Translations under genes and position numbers: made by a program
The notes under the pieces: generated by a model
The model's input: only the letters and a program-made list of their open reading frames with translations
Told to the model about the DNA's origin: nothing
The model's database searches: none
Shown: in pieces, positions 10,088-27,368 of the stretch
Layout: each line of letters begins with the position of its first letter
Position numbering within the stretch: the stretch's first letter is position 1
Origin: a virus
Reading direction: 5' to 3' (one strand)
IMG/VR virus record: IMGVR_UViG_3300025030_000270
Coordinates: 1-37,525 of that record
Length of the DNA: 37,525 nucleotides

Positions 10088-10942
10088 ATGGATATGAAGG
10101 CGTGGGAACCGATTGATGAACTCCAGGTTCAAGCCCTGGACAGCGACTGCAACTACTTGAAGCCGGTGGAGGATCTTGAACCCGGCGAAAGTCAGCGGTA
10201 CGGGTGCACCGTTATCGGGTTCTGTCTGGACGATCCCGAAGGGTGCCGCAGCATCATGGATATCACGACCGGCGAAGGCCGCGAGGCCGATGAGGCACTG
10301 GCTGCTCTCGTTGTCAGGTCTATGCGCGTCGCAGCTGGAATGCAGGCGGGAGGTTGCCCTTACTGTTTCGGCAACGTTCTTTACTGCGACCGTCACGACC
10401 AGGCAAAGGGTGTGGCGCACTGCGATGATTGCGGCGCGGAACTCACGATGGAACAGTACCGCGAGGGGCTGCGCTGGGCAGAGTGCCACAAGTCGGATAC
10501 TCCGGACAGGGTTCTTTTCTACGAACAGGACTTCTATGTCCTGTCGAATTTCTCGGCTTTTCGGCTGGCATGGAAGGGCCTGACTTACGATACCTCGGAG
10601 GCGGCCTACCATTCCGAGAAGTTCCCCGGCAACTTCAGCCTGCAGATGAAAATCAGAGATGCTATTTCAGCCCACGAAGCTTTTAAAGTTGCTGAAGCGC
10701 ATAAGGCTGAACGCCGCCCAGACTGGGATGATGTAAAGGTGGGCATCATGCGGGACATCCTCCGCGCAAAGGCAAGCCGGCACGAATACGTGAAGCGGAA
10801 GCTGTTGGCGACTGGTGACCGTGAACTGGTAGAGGACTCCTGGCGTGATGATTTCTGGGGGTGGGGCGAAGATCGGGATGGGGTAAACATGCTTGGCAGG
10901 CTCTGGATGGAGATTCGGGCCGAGCTGCGGGCGACCGCCTAA
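10088..10942 (+). CDS. Zinc-ribbon protein with C-terminal NADAR (YbiA-like) domain
   Basis: The product has 284 aa from ATG 10088 behind AAGGAGGAG. Residues about 85-120 hold two Cys pairs (Cys90-x2-Cys93 and Cys112-x2-Cys115), a zinc-ribbon pattern. Residues about 140-280 are a NADAR/DUF1768 domain: YVLSNFSAF, a TSEAAYHSEKF helix, WDDVKVGIMRDILRAK, LLATGDRELVEDS, FWGWGEDRDG and NMLGRLWMEIR match its conserved blocks. NADAR proteins are N-glycosidases acting on riboflavin-pathway amines or on ADP-ribosylated guanine in nucleic acids. The N-terminal part is an addition to the usual single domain. It may counter an ADP-ribosyl or NAD-based host defence, which is inference. Module ends are TTAGGC (10068) and the complementary GCCTAAC (10937). 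Confidence 0.88.
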   Translation: MDMKAWEPIDELQVQALDSDCNYLKPVEDLEPGESQRYGCTVIGFCLDDPEGCRSIMDITTGEGREADEALAALVVRSMRVAAGMQAGGCPYCFGNVLYCDRHDQAKGVAHCDDCGAELTMEQYREGLRWAECHKSDTPDRVLFYEQDFYVLSNFSAFRLAWKGLTYDTSEAAYHSEKFPGNFSLQMKIRDAISAHEAFKVAEAHKAERRPDWDDVKVGIMRDILRAKASRHEYVKRKLLATGDRELVEDSWRDDFWGWGEDRDGVNMLGRLWMEIRAELRATA

Positions 10943-16160: not shown

Positions 16161-16718
16161 ATGGGCAAGCGCGCCGACAAGGAACAAACGGCCATCGAGC
16201 TTTATGCCGGAGGTATGGAGATCCCGCAGATCAGTGCCGAGCTGGGCGTCTCCGAGAACTCCCTGCGCACTTGGAAGAAGCGCGCCGGCAACGAGTGGGA
16301 CGAAGCCCGCGCCCTGTGCCGCAAGGCCTTTGTGAGCAGCATGGAGGATGTGGGATCAAGGCTGCGCCGATCCAGAGAGATCGCCGCTACCCTGGGTGGC
16401 AAGGCCGGACTTGAGGGGCAGGGGCAAATGGGTCAAGTGATCAACGAGCTGCTGCGCTCGCTGCTCTACGACCTTACTGCCAAGGGCAACCTGGGCGGGG
16501 AAGAGATGTCCGCTACCATTGAGCAGCTCAAGGGCCTCGCCCTCACCATGCACCGCCTGGAGGGCGCCGCCAACCTGAACCTCAAGCGCGAGGCGGAGAT
16601 CCGCAAGCAGGCATTCGAACAGGCGGCAGAAACGGTCGAGAAGACGGCGCAGTTGGAAGGCGTCTCAGCCGAGACCATTCTTAAGATCCGTCGCGACGTG
16701 CTGATGATGGCGGCGTGA
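16161..16718 (+). CDS. Terminase small subunit (DUF1804 family)
   Basis: The product has 185 aa from ATG 16161. The N-terminal helix-turn-helix (IPQISAELGVSENSLRTWKKR followed by NEWDEARAL) and the long helical C-terminus fit DUF1804, the small packaging subunit of many Mu-like phages. It recognises DNA and regulates the packaging motor encoded next. It ends overlapping the large-subunit start. Confidence 0.87.
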   Translation: MGKRADKEQTAIELYAGGMEIPQISAELGVSENSLRTWKKRAGNEWDEARALCRKAFVSSMEDVGSRLRRSREIAATLGGKAGLEGQGQMGQVINELLRSLLYDLTAKGNLGGEEMSATIEQLKGLALTMHRLEGAANLNLKREAEIRKQAFEQAAETVEKTAQLEGVSAETILKIRRDVLMMAA

Positions 16719-18121
16719 TGAAGATAGTCAAGGCGAAGCACATACCGGCCAACCCGGGCGGACTCTTTCTCCCCTATCAGGAGAAGTGGATCCTGGATCG
16801 CAGCCGGCTGAAGCTGATGGAGAAGGCCCGGCAGATCGGCCTCTCCTGGAGCACCGCCTACGCAGCCGACGAGCGCACCGCCGAGGCTGGCGTCAAGTGG
16901 GACCAGTGGATCTCCAGCCGCGATGATCTCCAGGCGCGTCTGGTGATCGAGGACTGCAAGATGTTCGCTAAGATCCTGCAGCTCGCAGCCGAGGACCTGG
17001 GCGAGTGCGTTATCGACCAGAAGCGCTCCATCTCCGCTTACGTACTGCAGTTCTCCAACGGCCGTCGCATCCACTCCATGAGCTCGAACCCCGACGCGCA
17101 GGCAGGGAAACGTGGCGGCCGTATCCTGGACGAATTCGCGCTGCACCCGGACCCACGCAAGCTCTGGTCTATCGCCTACCCCGGCATCACCTGGGGCGGC
17201 AACATGGAAGTAATCTCCACCCACAGGGGGAGCGCCAACTTCTTTAACCAGTTGATTCGCGAGGTCCGCGAGCATAACAACCCCAAGAAGATCAGCCTGC
17301 ACCGCGTCACCCTTAAAGACGCCATAGACCAGGGCTTCCTCTGGAAGCTGCAGCAGTCGCTTCCTGCCGACCACGAAGTCCAGGAGCTTGACGAGCCGGC
17401 CTACTTCGACTTCATCAGGGGCGGTTGCGCCGACGAGGAATCGTTCCAGCAGGAATACATGTGCGTGCCGGCAGACGACGCCGCCGCCTTCCTGGAATAC
17501 GACCTGATCGCCTCCTGCGAGTACGCCCAGGCCGAAAAATGGGAGATCGACTGCAGCGTCACCAAGCCCGAAGGTCGCCTCTTTGCCGGTCTCGACATCG
17601 GCCGCAAGAAGGACCTCACCGTCCTCTGGGTCCTGGAGCTCCTGGGCGACGTTCTTTACACGCGACAGATCATTGAGCTCCGGAACATGTCAAAGCCCGA
17701 CCAGGAGAAGATCCTCTGGCCCATCCTCGCCAAGGTCGACCGCTGCTGCCTGGACTACACCGGCCTGGGGATCGGCTGGGGCGATGACGCCCAGAGGCAG
17801 TTCGGCAAGTACCGCGTGGAGTGTATAACCTTCACGCCCAAGGTAAAGGAGGAGCTCGCCTACCCGGTGCGCGGCAAGATGGAAGACCGGAAGCTTCGCA
17901 TCCCCTATCGGCCCGAAGTGCGCGCCGATCTCCGCGCCGTCACTAAGGAGACCACCGCCGCAGGAAACATCCGTTTCACGGCCGAGCGAAGCGAAAACGG
18001 CCACGCCGACCGCTTCTGGGCCTTGGGTCTTGCCATCCATGCGGCAGGGACAAACGCCGGTCCTGTCCCCATCACCAGCCGCAGCCGCCGGCAGGCAAAC
18101 AAACTCCTGGAGGGGTACTAG
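16718..18121 (+). CDS. Terminase large subunit (Mu gp28-like)
   Basis: The product has 467 aa from ATG 16718; GTG 16715 one codon upstream is equally possible. The ATPase part has a variant Walker A (EKARQIGLSWS, about residues 35-45) and Walker B with Asp-Glu (GRILDE, about 138-139). The RNase H-like nuclease has acidic residues in GLDIGRKKDL (Asp293), CLDYTG (Asp346) and HADRFWALG (Asp431). It packages the DNA by the headful mechanism in Mu-like phages. Confidence 0.94.
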   Translation: MKIVKAKHIPANPGGLFLPYQEKWILDRSRLKLMEKARQIGLSWSTAYAADERTAEAGVKWDQWISSRDDLQARLVIEDCKMFAKILQLAAEDLGECVIDQKRSISAYVLQFSNGRRIHSMSSNPDAQAGKRGGRILDEFALHPDPRKLWSIAYPGITWGGNMEVISTHRGSANFFNQLIREVREHNNPKKISLHRVTLKDAIDQGFLWKLQQSLPADHEVQELDEPAYFDFIRGGCADEESFQQEYMCVPADDAAAFLEYDLIASCEYAQAEKWEIDCSVTKPEGRLFAGLDIGRKKDLTVLWVLELLGDVLYTRQIIELRNMSKPDQEKILWPILAKVDRCCLDYTGLGIGWGDDAQRQFGKYRVECITFTPKVKEELAYPVRGKMEDRKLRIPYRPEVRADLRAVTKETTAAGNIRFTAERSENGHADRFWALGLAIHAAGTNAGPVPITSRSRRQANKLLEGY

Positions 18122-21194: not shown

Positions 21195-22355
21195 ATGACG
21201 AGATTCGAGATATTCAAACCGGGCACCCACACAGCCATGAGCGGCGCCGAGATCTGCTTCACCGAGGCCGACCTCATCGCCAGCGCCGCAGCCTACGACC
21301 CCCGGCTGCACGAGGCGCCCCTGGTCATCGGCCACCCGGCAGACAACGCCCCCGCCTGGGGCTGGACGCAGGCCCTATCTTTTGCCGACTCCCGTCTCAT
21401 GGCCGAAGCAGATCAGATCGATGTTGCCTTCGCCGAGGCGGTCAACGACGGCAAGTACAAGAAGCGCAGCGCCTCGTTTTATCCTCCCGATCACGCCGCC
21501 AATCCCGTCCCCGGGGTTTACTACCTGCGTCACATCGGATTTCTGGGTGCCCAGCCGCCGGCGGTCAAGGGTCTCAAGGACGTTAACTTTGCCGAGGAGG
21601 ATGGCCTCCTCGTCTTTGCTGAAATGGAAGAACAACAAACAAAACAGGAGGCCAAAACAATGGCTGTGAAAGACAGAGCATCATTTTGCGGCGACTGCGG
21701 CGAAAACGTCTGCATCCCCTGCTGTCCGGTCGATGCGATCACCATGACCCCGGAGAAAGGAGCCGTCATCGACGCGGCCAAATGCACCGTCTGCTACAAG
21801 TGCATCGACGCCTGCCGCATGATGTGCGACCCCGTTTACGGCATGCAGGTCGCCAACTACTCCGAGCAGATCAAGGGTCAGCTCACGCAGATCGCCACTC
21901 TCACCGGCGAGCGTGACACCGCCGCCAGGACCCTCACCGACATCCGGACCACCCAGCGCCGGGCAGAGCTCGACGCCTTCTGCGAATCCGAAGAGATGCG
22001 CAGCAAGATCTCCCCGGCCATGAAGCCGGCCGTCATCGGCCTGATGATGAAGCTCGATGGCGCCGAGCCGGTTGAGTTCGGCGAAGGCGACGCCAAGGTG
22101 ATGAAGAGCCCCCTGGAAATCTATCAGGGAGAACTGAAGGCCAGTCCCGACGTGGTCCAGTTCGGCGAGTTTGCCACCAAGAAGAACGCCGGCGGGAAAG
22201 GTGGCCACGGCGGACACGGCAAAGGCACCGCCGACTTCGGCGAGCATGTCGACGAGGACCGCAACAGCCTGCACAACAAGGTCCTGGAGTATCAGGAAGC
22301 AAACCCGGGTAAAACCTACGAGCAAGCCCTCGTCATCGTCCAAAAGCAGGATTAA
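21195..22355 (+). CDS. Phage protease/scaffold (Mu I/Z-type) with internal ferredoxin-like domain
   Basis: The product has 386 aa from ATG 21195 (GACGGAGG site). Residues 1-145 match the Mu gpI-type head protease, with conserved APLVIGHPADNAPAWGW, KYKKRSASFYPP and YLRHIGFLGAQPPAVKGL. Residues 160-215 then show a 2[4Fe-4S] pattern: Cys165-x2-Cys168-x4-Cys173-x3-Cys177-Pro, and Cys197-x2-Cys200-x2-Cys203-x3-Cys207. Between the motifs PVDAITM and a 10-residue loop follow the ferredoxin layout. Residues 220-386 are the helical, acidic scaffold part. I know of no scaffold/protease with a ferredoxin domain. Frame and codon use are continuous, so it is not an assembly artefact on its face. Confidence 0.9.
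   Translation: MTRFEIFKPGTHTAMSGAEICFTEADLIASAAAYDPRLHEAPLVIGHPADNAPAWGWTQALSFADSRLMAEADQIDVAFAEAVNDGKYKKRSASFYPPDHAANPVPGVYYLRHIGFLGAQPPAVKGLKDVNFAEEDGLLVFAEMEEQQTKQEAKTMAVKDRASFCGDCGENVCIPCCPVDAITMTPEKGAVIDAAKCTVCYKCIDACRMMCDPVYGMQVANYSEQIKGQLTQIATLTGERDTAARTLTDIRTTQRRAELDAFCESEEMRSKISPAMKPAVIGLMMKLDGAEPVEFGEGDAKVMKSPLEIYQGELKASPDVVQFGEFATKKNAGGKGGHGGHGKGTADFGEHVDEDRNSLHNKVLEYQEANPGKTYEQALVIVQKQD
21660..22355 (+). CDS. Internally initiated scaffold protein (Z-like) starting with the ferredoxin-like domain
   Basis: A strong CAGGAGG site at 21645-21651 lies 8 bases before an in-frame ATG at 21660 (residue 156 of the full protein). Initiation there gives a 231-aa protein starting MAVKDRASFCGDCG. 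In Mu, gene Z (scaffold) starts inside gene I in the same frame, so the arrangement is expected for this gene. What is new is that the internal product begins exactly at the Cys-rich domain. Expression is inferred from the ribosome site. Confidence 0.75.
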   Translation: MAVKDRASFCGDCGENVCIPCCPVDAITMTPEKGAVIDAAKCTVCYKCIDACRMMCDPVYGMQVANYSEQIKGQLTQIATLTGERDTAARTLTDIRTTQRRAELDAFCESEEMRSKISPAMKPAVIGLMMKLDGAEPVEFGEGDAKVMKSPLEIYQGELKASPDVVQFGEFATKKNAGGKGGHGGHGKGTADFGEHVDEDRNSLHNKVLEYQEANPGKTYEQALVIVQKQD

Positions 22356-22379: not shown

Positions 22380-23315
22380 ATGAGTCGTTTAGCCAATCTG
22401 AGGATCGTAGATCCCATCCTCTCCACCCTCGCCAGGGGATATATTTTCCCCGAGCTCGCCTGCGAAGCGCTGTTCCCCATGGTCCGCGTCGAAAAGGAAG
22501 CCGGCAAGCTCCCCCAGTTCGGCAAGGAAGCGTTCCGCATCTACCAGACCGAGCGGGCTCTGCGCGCCAAGTCCAACCGCATCAACCCCGAGGACTACGG
22601 TGACATCGACGTCGTGCTCACCGAGCACGACCTGGAGTACCCCATCGACTACCGGGAGCGCGACGAAGCCGAAAACGTCCTGCCCCTGGAGCGCTGGGCC
22701 ACCAACGTCGTCACCAAGGCGCTGCGGATCCGCTGCGAGAAGCAGTGCGCCGACCTCGCCCAGAACCCGGCCAACTACGCAGCCGGCAATAAGATCGCCC
22801 TGGCCGGCGGCGACAAGTTCTCCGACAAGGTCAACTCCGATCCTCTTGGCGTCATCGACGACGGCAAGGATGCCATCCGGCAGAAGATCGGCGCCGAACC
22901 TAACACCATGGTCATCGGGTACCAGGTCTGGAAAAAGCTGAAGCGTCACCCGCAGGTCGTCGACCTGATCAAGTTTTCCCAGAAAGGCGTGGTTTCCGTG
23001 GACATCTTCAAGGAAGCCGTGGAAATGAAAAACATCATCATCGGCCGTTCCGCATACGACTCCGAAGTGGCCGGCGCAGGCCTCACCGACGTCTGGGGCA
23101 ACACCATCACCATGGCCTACGTTCCCGAGAAGAGCGCCGATGCGGAGCGCACCGAGTACGAGCCGAGCTACGGCTACACCTTCGGCAAGAAAAACCAGCC
23201 GACAGTCGACACCTACGTCGAGGGCGGCAAGGTCCAGCTCATCCGCAACACCGACATCTTCAAACCGTACATCGTCGGCGCAGAGGGCGGATACCTCATC
23301 TACGACGTCATTTAA
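22380..23315 (+). CDS. Major capsid protein
   Basis: The product has 311 aa from ATG 22380 behind an AAGGAGG site, 24 bp after the protease/scaffold gene. It is the expected place and length for the HK97-fold major head protein of Mu-like phages. The E-loop-type segment (residues 45-80), the TMVIGYQVWKKLKRHP block and the C-terminal YVEGGKVQLIRNTDIFKPYI-like end resemble major capsid proteins of this group. The strong ribosome site suits a highly made protein. Confidence 0.9.
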   Translation: MSRLANLRIVDPILSTLARGYIFPELACEALFPMVRVEKEAGKLPQFGKEAFRIYQTERALRAKSNRINPEDYGDIDVVLTEHDLEYPIDYRERDEAENVLPLERWATNVVTKALRIRCEKQCADLAQNPANYAAGNKIALAGGDKFSDKVNSDPLGVIDDGKDAIRQKIGAEPNTMVIGYQVWKKLKRHPQVVDLIKFSQKGVVSVDIFKEAVEMKNIIIGRSAYDSEVAGAGLTDVWGNTITMAYVPEKSADAERTEYEPSYGYTFGKKNQPTVDTYVEGGKVQLIRNTDIFKPYIVGAEGGYLIYDVI

Positions 23316-24084: not shown

Positions 24085-24480
24085 ATGAGGCACTTCTCCA
24101 TCGGCATCGGCCTTTTTCTGGCCGTGATCCTTGTCAGCTCTTTGGCCGTTGCCGCCATGCCCGGCACCAAGCAGGGTGCCGTCATCCAGAACCTGAAGGG
24201 GATTTCACCCGCCCCCGCGGCGTCCAGCTGCACCAGCATCACGGCCACCAAGGGCACCATCGTAACCGTCAACCCTTCCGGCTACACGGCAGTTGAATGG
24301 TCGGCCACCGACGGCACGCCCACGGCGCTCGCCGTCAAGCGGCACCTGAACTCCAACACCGCCTTCATGCCGGGATCATCCGGGACTGTCGTTTTTAACT
24401 CCGGCATCACCTCGGTGCCATTCAAGAAGTACAGCACAGCCACGGCGACCAAAGCGGAAGTCTGCTACGACTTGCAATAA
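24085..24480 (+). CDS. Secreted hypothetical protein within the head operon
   Basis: The product has 131 aa from ATG 24085 (AGGGGGAT upstream). The N-terminus is a clear Sec-type signal peptide: basic MRH, hydrophobic GIGLFLAVILVSSL, and an AVAA cleavage site near residue 24. The mature part is Thr/Ser-rich with two cysteines, likely beta. An exported protein between head genes is unusual; it may be cargo. I recognise no family. Confidence 0.72.
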   Translation: MRHFSIGIGLFLAVILVSSLAVAAMPGTKQGAVIQNLKGISPAPAASSCTSITATKGTIVTVNPSGYTAVEWSATDGTPTALAVKRHLNSNTAFMPGSSGTVVFNSGITSVPFKKYSTATATKAEVCYDLQ

Positions 24481-25770: not shown

Positions 25771-25947
25771 ATGCTAGTCCTATCCGCACCAGGCACCCGC
25801 ACCCCGATGGAGACCAACCCGAGGGAGTACGTCACCGATACGGAACCGTTCGACGTTCCGGACACGACTTATTACCGGCGTTTGCTGGACGACGGCTCTC
25901 TGGTCCTCGCCAAGCTCGGCAAACAGAAAAAAGGAGGTGACCAGTAA
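25771..25947 (+). CDS. DUF2635 protein (Mu gp38-like)
   Basis: This 58-aa frame starts at ATG 25771 with GCAAGGAGG upstream. The FDVPDTTYYRRLLDDGSLV block is the DUF2635 signature, a small tail gene that precedes the sheath in Mu-like phages. Its stop overlaps the sheath start (TAATG). Confidence 0.85.
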   Translation: MLVLSAPGTRTPMETNPREYVTDTEPFDVPDTTYYRRLLDDGSLVLAKLGKQKKGGDQ

Positions 25948-27368
25948 TGGCATCGAAAAACATCAGCTTCGACGCGATCCCCAGCAGCATCCGGAAGCCG
26001 GGCAAGTACTTCGAGTTCAACACGAAACTCGCTGTCCGGACACTCCCCGCCAACCTGCAGAAGATGCTGATCATCTGCCAGCGGCTGGCGGCCGGCACCG
26101 TCGCCGCCCTGGTGCCGACCAACGTTTTCAGCGACGCCGAGGCCTCGACCTACTTTGGCAACGGCTCCAACGCGCACCTCATGTGCCGCGCGGCCATCAA
26201 GGCCAACCCCTACCTGCAGCTGAGCGTTTGCGCCCTGGACGACATGGAAGCAGGCGCGGCCGCCGGCGGGAGCATCACCATCACCGGCCCGGCCACCGGC
26301 CCCGGCGTGCTGCGCCTCTTCGTCGGCAGCCGCCGCATCGAGATCGCCATCGCTACCGCCGCCACGGCGGAAGTCATCGCCGCAGCCCTCAATGCCGAGA
26401 TCGGCAAGCTCGGCGACCTCCCGGTGACCGCGACCGTGCTGGCTGGCGTCATCACCCTGACCGCCAGGCACAAGGGAACCATCGGCAACCTGGTCGACCT
26501 GACCACGGAAGTAACCGCCGCCGGCGTCGCCTCCGCAGTTGTCGCCATGGCCAACGGCGCCACCGATCCGGACACGGCCACCGCCTACGCCAAGGTCTTT
26601 GCCGAGCAGTACCACATCATCGCCATCCCCTACATCGACGCCACCGCGATCGGCGCGCTCAAGACGCATCTCGACAGCGTCTCCGGCCCCATGGAGCAGC
26701 GCCCCGGCATCGGCATTTACGCCCTCGACTCCGCCCTGGGCACCGTCACCACCCTGGCGCCAACCATCAACGGCGGGCGTCTCAGCAACGGCTATCTGCG
26801 CGGCACGAAAAGCCCCAGCTACGAGGTGGCAGCTGCCTACGCAGCCGAGGTTGCCTTCGAGGAGGACCCCGCGATGCCGCTCAACACTCTGCCGTTGATC
26901 GGCATTGCGGCACCGGACATCACCCAGCGCCTGTCCCGTACCGAGCAGGAAAGCTGCCTGGCAAACGGCGTCACCCCCTTCGAGGTAGGCCCCGGCGAAG
27001 TGGTGCAGATCGTTCGTGCGATTACGACCTACACCAAAGATGCCAACGGCATCGACGACATCAGCCTGCTCGATCTCACGACCATCCGCACGCTGGACTA
27101 TGTGCGCAAGGCATGCCGCGAGCGTATCGCCCTGCGCTTCCCGAGAGCGAAGCTTTCCAGCAAGACGCCTGCCCGGGTAAGGTCCGAGTTGATTGACGTG
27201 CTCTTGAAGCTGGAAGAGCTGGAGATCGTCGAGGAGGTCACCGCCAATCTGCCCGGCCTGATCGTCGAGCGCGACCTCCAAGACCCGAACCGTCTGAATG
27301 CCAAGATCCCGGCCGACATCGTCAACGGCCTCCATGTCTTCGCCGGCCGCATTGATCTGCTGCTTTAA
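25947..27368 (+). CDS. Tail sheath protein (gpL-like)
   Basis: The product has 473 aa from ATG 25947 behind AAAGGAGGTGA. It has the contractile sheath layout: N-terminal domain, an inserted Ala/Gly-rich beta domain (about residues 105-205), a subtilisin-like domain (AEQYHIIAIPYID, GIGIYALDS) and a C-terminal domain (RTLDYVRKACRERI). It polymerises round the tube and contracts on infection, so the virion is a myovirus. Confidence 0.94.
   Translation: MASKNISFDAIPSSIRKPGKYFEFNTKLAVRTLPANLQKMLIICQRLAAGTVAALVPTNVFSDAEASTYFGNGSNAHLMCRAAIKANPYLQLSVCALDDMEAGAAAGGSITITGPATGPGVLRLFVGSRRIEIAIATAATAEVIAAALNAEIGKLGDLPVTATVLAGVITLTARHKGTIGNLVDLTTEVTAAGVASAVVAMANGATDPDTATAYAKVFAEQYHIIAIPYIDATAIGALKTHLDSVSGPMEQRPGIGIYALDSALGTVTTLAPTINGGRLSNGYLRGTKSPSYEVAAAYAAEVAFEEDPAMPLNTLPLIGIAAPDITQRLSRTEQESCLANGVTPFEVGPGEVVQIVRAITTYTKDANGIDDISLLDLTTIRTLDYVRKACRERIALRFPRAKLSSKTPARVRSELIDVLLKLEELEIVEEVTANLPGLIVERDLQDPNRLNAKIPADIVNGLHVFAGRIDLLL

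Follow-up and report, generated by a model that had tools for sequence, protein, structure and literature searches.

Whether the scaffold on which a phage head is built can carry an iron-sulfur domain is the question raised by a single gene in the window, the 37,525-nucleotide stretch of IMGVR_UViG_3300025030_000270 that was analysed. The gene is a Mu-type I/Z gene for a head maturation protease and scaffold, within which the sequence-only reading had recognised an in-frame domain resembling 2[4Fe-4S] ferredoxins, a claim borne out by both the motif and the profile scores. No scaffold or prohead protease with an iron-sulfur cluster or ferredoxin was found among the open-access titles and abstracts listed, and a capsid scaffold with an iron-sulfur-type domain is a new form of the I/Z protease-scaffold. 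Were the clusters real, the assembly of heads would hinge on a host-supplied cofactor that oxygen can destroy, redox control of virus assembly would become directly testable, and the N-termini of scaffolds could be said to take up entire cofactor-binding domains.

The I/Z gene and its nested scaffold

The identity of the gene is clear from its match to PHROG 976 (head maturation protease), which covers residues 1-385 of the protein with an E-value of 5.5e-91, and from its place in a Mu-like head module with the order terminase, portal, gpF-like protein, neck, I/Z gene and major head protein (Table 1). Within the protease part H47, S92, S94 and H113 are invariant in an alignment of 29 homologues, AlphaFold run with 29 sequences gives a pLDDT of about 85-97 through residue 120, and the best Foldseek matches in the PDB are herpesvirus assemblin-type proteases (probability 1.0, with a borderline E-value of 1.5e-3). 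The same model has a confident long helix at residues 213-263 and further C-terminal helices in the scaffold, and the C-terminal part of Z on its own matches PHROG 976 with an E-value of 9.3e-21.

Table 1. Features of the I/Z gene and the adjoining head protein gene, in positions of the window
Feature	Position	Strand	Basis
I/Z gene, head maturation protease and scaffold, 386 aa	21195..22355	+	PHROG 976 and neighbouring genes
Protease part, residues 1-155	21195..21659	+	homologue alignment, AlphaFold, Foldseek
Internal Shine-Dalgarno AGGAGG	21647..21652	+	7 nt before ATG 21660; same in the relative
Predicted nested scaffold Z, 231 aa, ferredoxin domain N-terminal	21660..22355	+	internal ATG and Shine-Dalgarno
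Ferredoxin-type domain, residues 156-215	21660..21839	+	NCBIfam, Pfam, PHROG and PDB matches
First cluster motif, C165-x2-C168-x4-C173-x3-C177-P	21687..21728	+	sequence; gapless to PsrB 2vpw_B and TtrB
Second cluster motif, C197-x2-C200-x2-C203-x3-C207	21783..21815	+	sequence; aligned to Cys of PsrB, TtrB and glycyl-radical activase
Helical scaffold remainder, residues 216-386	21840..22352	+	AlphaFold helices; dN/dS 0.26
Major head protein (scaffold client)	22380..23315	+	PHROG 1005, E 5.5e-102

Internal in-frame starts of the scaffold are known in Mu-like phages, having been described in PaMx73 (PMC4378225) and KS10 (PMC2628397), with ORF36Z of phage B3 a further case. Within the I/Z gene only the first start and ATG 21660 have a Shine-Dalgarno sequence, and an equivalent internal start after the protease part is found in 122 of 163 full-length homologues, as against 17 of 163 in an upstream control stretch. 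The ferredoxin domain begins directly after this start and thus forms the N-terminal domain of the predicted Z, rather than lying between protease and scaffold as had been supposed, and it occupies the site that a helical segment has in homologues such as L006 and L121. In gene order, in the whole-length match, in the invariant protease residues and in the internal in-frame scaffold start with its Shine-Dalgarno sequence the gene resembles other Mu-type I/Z genes (PHROG 976; B3 ORF36/36Z, BcepMu 32/33, KS10 28/29), but the homologues examined have no cysteine cluster, whereas Z of this phage starts with the ferredoxin-type domain and lacks the LRDWL module.

The ferredoxin-type domain

All eight cysteines of the two motifs (165, 168, 173, 177, 197, 200, 203 and 207 of the 386-aa frame) stand exactly where the sequence-only reading had placed them, and PVDAITM, also noted there, spans residues 178-184, with Pro178 directly after C177. 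Cys176 and Cys211 are additional, making ten cysteines in the domain region, and Arg208 follows the second motif where ferredoxins usually have a proline. When all six frames of the window were scanned for the paired motif, only the I/Z gene contained it.

The two extra residues of the first motif had been regarded as an anomaly that put cluster binding in question, yet x4 is the regular spacing in PsrB/TtrB-type iron-sulfur subunits and therefore the longer motif is no argument against cluster binding. PsrB (2vpw_B) aligns over 53 residues with zero gaps and all eight cysteines matched; the eight cysteines of TtrB likewise coincide with all eight of the phage domain, the first motif there being x4 as well. 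The PsrB/TtrB/DmsB-type subunits (PDB 2vpw chain B) share with the phage domain the identical spacing of eight cysteines and the CP after the first motif, but they are electron-transfer subunits of oxidoreductases with four clusters, unlike the phage protein, which has a single dicluster domain that is fused to a scaffold and has no oxidoreductase partner.

A Pfam search for Fer4, which had been proposed as a check, did return Fer4_7 (E 6.4e-4 with the domain alone, 0.0078 with the whole protein), but at 20.6 bits against a curated gathering cut-off of 27, so the domain is named here ferredoxin-type and not a member of Pfam Fer4. Many iron-sulfur models of NCBIfam match, with E-values from 2e-5 for the domain to 6e-8 for Z, as does PHROG 16249 ('ferredoxin', 1.6e-4), and in the PDB the domain matches RnfB at 1e-5, the best among solved structures, and PsrB at 0.001-0.0025. 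As cysteine-rich sequence inflates profile scores, shuffles in which the cysteines were held in place and the other residues permuted were used as the control. The best of nine such shuffles reached 0.0047 in NCBIfam, compared with 2e-5 for the real domain, and two of the nine that were run against the PDB gave 0.11 at best, compared with 1e-5, whilst a Cys-to-Ser version of the domain had no match. The profile scores are weak, yet well above those of the cysteine-preserving shuffles, and since both the shuffles and the Cys-to-Ser version lose score, the cysteines and the remaining residues both carry the signal.

Structure prediction adds little to this, with a pLDDT of about 44-58 for the domain in the 29-sequence model and of 42 for Z modelled from two sequences, a low confidence that arises because just two sequences carry the domain. 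The model does have, at low confidence, a beta-hairpin (182-185 and 189-192) and a helix (204-210) positioned as in ferredoxins. With the fold of the domain left at low confidence by AlphaFold, the case for cluster binding comes from the sequence, which makes it likely that the domain binds two [4Fe-4S] clusters.

Distribution of the domain and modules at the junction

Distinct homologues of the I/Z protein, 168 in number, were drawn from viral contigs, phage records and bacterial genomes, and the ferredoxin domain is present in one of them, that of IMGVR_UViG_3300025030_000269. The cysteines, the conservation of which in homologues had been proposed as a test, are thus absent from the family at large (1/168) but fully kept in this close relative. 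No further carrier was found with exact domain patterns in viral contigs and genomes, with degenerate domain patterns, with the full gene, among phages and plasmids, or in sets of 399 and 296 whole genomes, and among the matches listed in the family alignment the same relative is the sole carrier. The junctions of the other ~167 homologues hold an LRDWL-type helical module in 85 cases, DUF6582 in 4 and neither in 78, these classes being approximate as they were assigned with simple patterns and a few genes are truncated at contig ends. In some homologues the I/Z junction is a short linker.

The four homologues with a DUF6582-type domain between protease and scaffold (L016, L017, L240 and L243; PF20223, E 1.5e-7) are like the phage gene in having a small extra domain at the same I/Z junction in the same family, but they differ in lacking the ferredoxin motif. 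In L016 and L017 the DUF6582 domain precedes the internal scaffold start and is therefore a protease-side insert. A separate insert of ~80 residues with no Pfam match is found at the I/Z junction of L237.

The search for a donor sequence of the ferredoxin-type domain found none. An extended match reaches the YjjW activase at an E-value of 2.8e-7, but the segment after the domain has no match when searched alone, and an origin from a radical-SAM enzyme is therefore not claimed.

The close relative and selection on the domain

IMGVR_UViG_3300025030_000269 is a separate phage that is colinear with the one studied here, with head-module DNA that is ~83-87% identical, lower identity elsewhere and a major head protein that is 99% identical. 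An assembly artefact was rejected as the explanation, since the fusion recurs in this second contig, which is colinear but diverged. Between the two phages the 60 codons of the domain have 0 nonsynonymous and 9 synonymous changes, whereas the rest of Z has 42 and 37 (dN/dS 0.26); the protease part has a dN/dS of 0.07. The domain differs from the rest of Z (Fisher p 0.003) but not significantly from the protease (p 0.18). This comparison shows purifying constraint on the ferredoxin domain, the cause of which is not given by two sequences.

Possible role in head assembly

That a host domain had been captured was one possibility in the sequence-only reading, and as a possibility it is upheld, with capture of a PsrB/TtrB-type domain as the best explanation. 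The usual N-terminal helical segment of Z would have been swapped for a captured dicluster ferredoxin domain of this type, so that translation from ATG 21660 would produce a Z beginning with the ferredoxin domain, which the full-length protease-scaffold would carry too. The domain would fold round two [4Fe-4S] clusters of host origin, giving the scaffold a compact head for interactions within the procapsid core. It is probable that a captured dicluster domain replaces the N-terminal helix of Z and heads the scaffold within the procapsid; that its role is structural and not electron-carrying is an even call. At maturation the protease would be expected to clear the scaffold, judging from the family. 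In JBD30, a phage of a related group, the procapsid pores measure 13-15 Å and are thought to be the exit route of the cleaved scaffold (PMC11445458). Ferredoxin domains in their folded state are wider, so that the domain would have to be unfolded, cut or retained. A bolder version, in which assembly of the capsid is gated by the clusters, with only holo-scaffold nucleating heads and virion production thus tied to anoxia and to the Fe-S supply of the host, or in which the domain is retained in the virion as ferredoxin cargo, is unlikely.

Somewhat less likely still is a redox or oxygen switch, whereby heads nucleate only with intact clusters and assembly is limited to anoxic or reduced conditions in the host; [4Fe-4S] clusters of this type are in general oxygen-sensitive and each residue of the domain is kept in both carriers, but a purely structural cluster predicts equal conservation. 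The cysteines may instead coordinate zinc or a different metal, or pair up as disulfides, in a zinc-finger-like structural module with no Fe-S, for which the ten cysteines, a weak Pfam match to FYVE (E 0.045) and the low AlphaFold confidence can be cited; this is improbable, as the spacing and the non-cysteine residues fit dicluster ferredoxins, gapless to PsrB/TtrB, the FYVE match is far poorer than that to Fer4_7, and the shuffles erase the signal. The domain could also bind a partner from host or phage, be it the portal or a redox complex in the membrane, and so target the scaffold or procapsid to a site, and RnfB, the best solved match, is indeed a membrane redox subunit; the likeness to RnfB is only at the level of ferredoxins, and such a role is given a similarly small chance.

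The junction accepts varied modules (LRDWL helix, DUF6582 or none) and the domain is rare in the family, both of which would suit a functionless ferredoxin fragment that entered a tolerant linker by illegitimate recombination. For such a passenger, however, the synonymous rate between the two phages would predict about 35 nonsynonymous changes under neutrality where none is seen, and AGGAGG and ATG 21660 are also kept in the relative, which makes this reading highly improbable.

Related systems and genome context

Among the tail-tip and hub proteins of phages there are known cases with iron-sulfur clusters, namely the lambda gpL family and the RcGTA hub, as far as the account in PMC7296036 (citing Tam 2013) goes. 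These are, like Z, phage morphogenesis proteins with an iron-sulfur cluster, one that is predicted in the case of Z, but within that account they are tail proteins with four cysteines and one cluster, and their domain, place and stage are unrelated to those of Z.

Elsewhere in the window, a 131-aa ORF with a signal-peptide-like start and no Pfam match lies within the head/neck module (24085-24480), and a NADAR-domain gene (PF08719, E 5.7e-26) lies upstream of the head genes at 10088-10942 and is possibly involved in counter-defence or related to ADP-ribose. The closest match of the terminase is that of phage B3 (73.5%) and of the head protein that of a Pasteurella phage (47%), a pairing that gives no more than a hint of a proteobacterial host. 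The phage is a mosaic, with a terminase (16715-18121) that is close to that of B3, a siphophage, yet with a gene for a contractile tail sheath (25947-27368).
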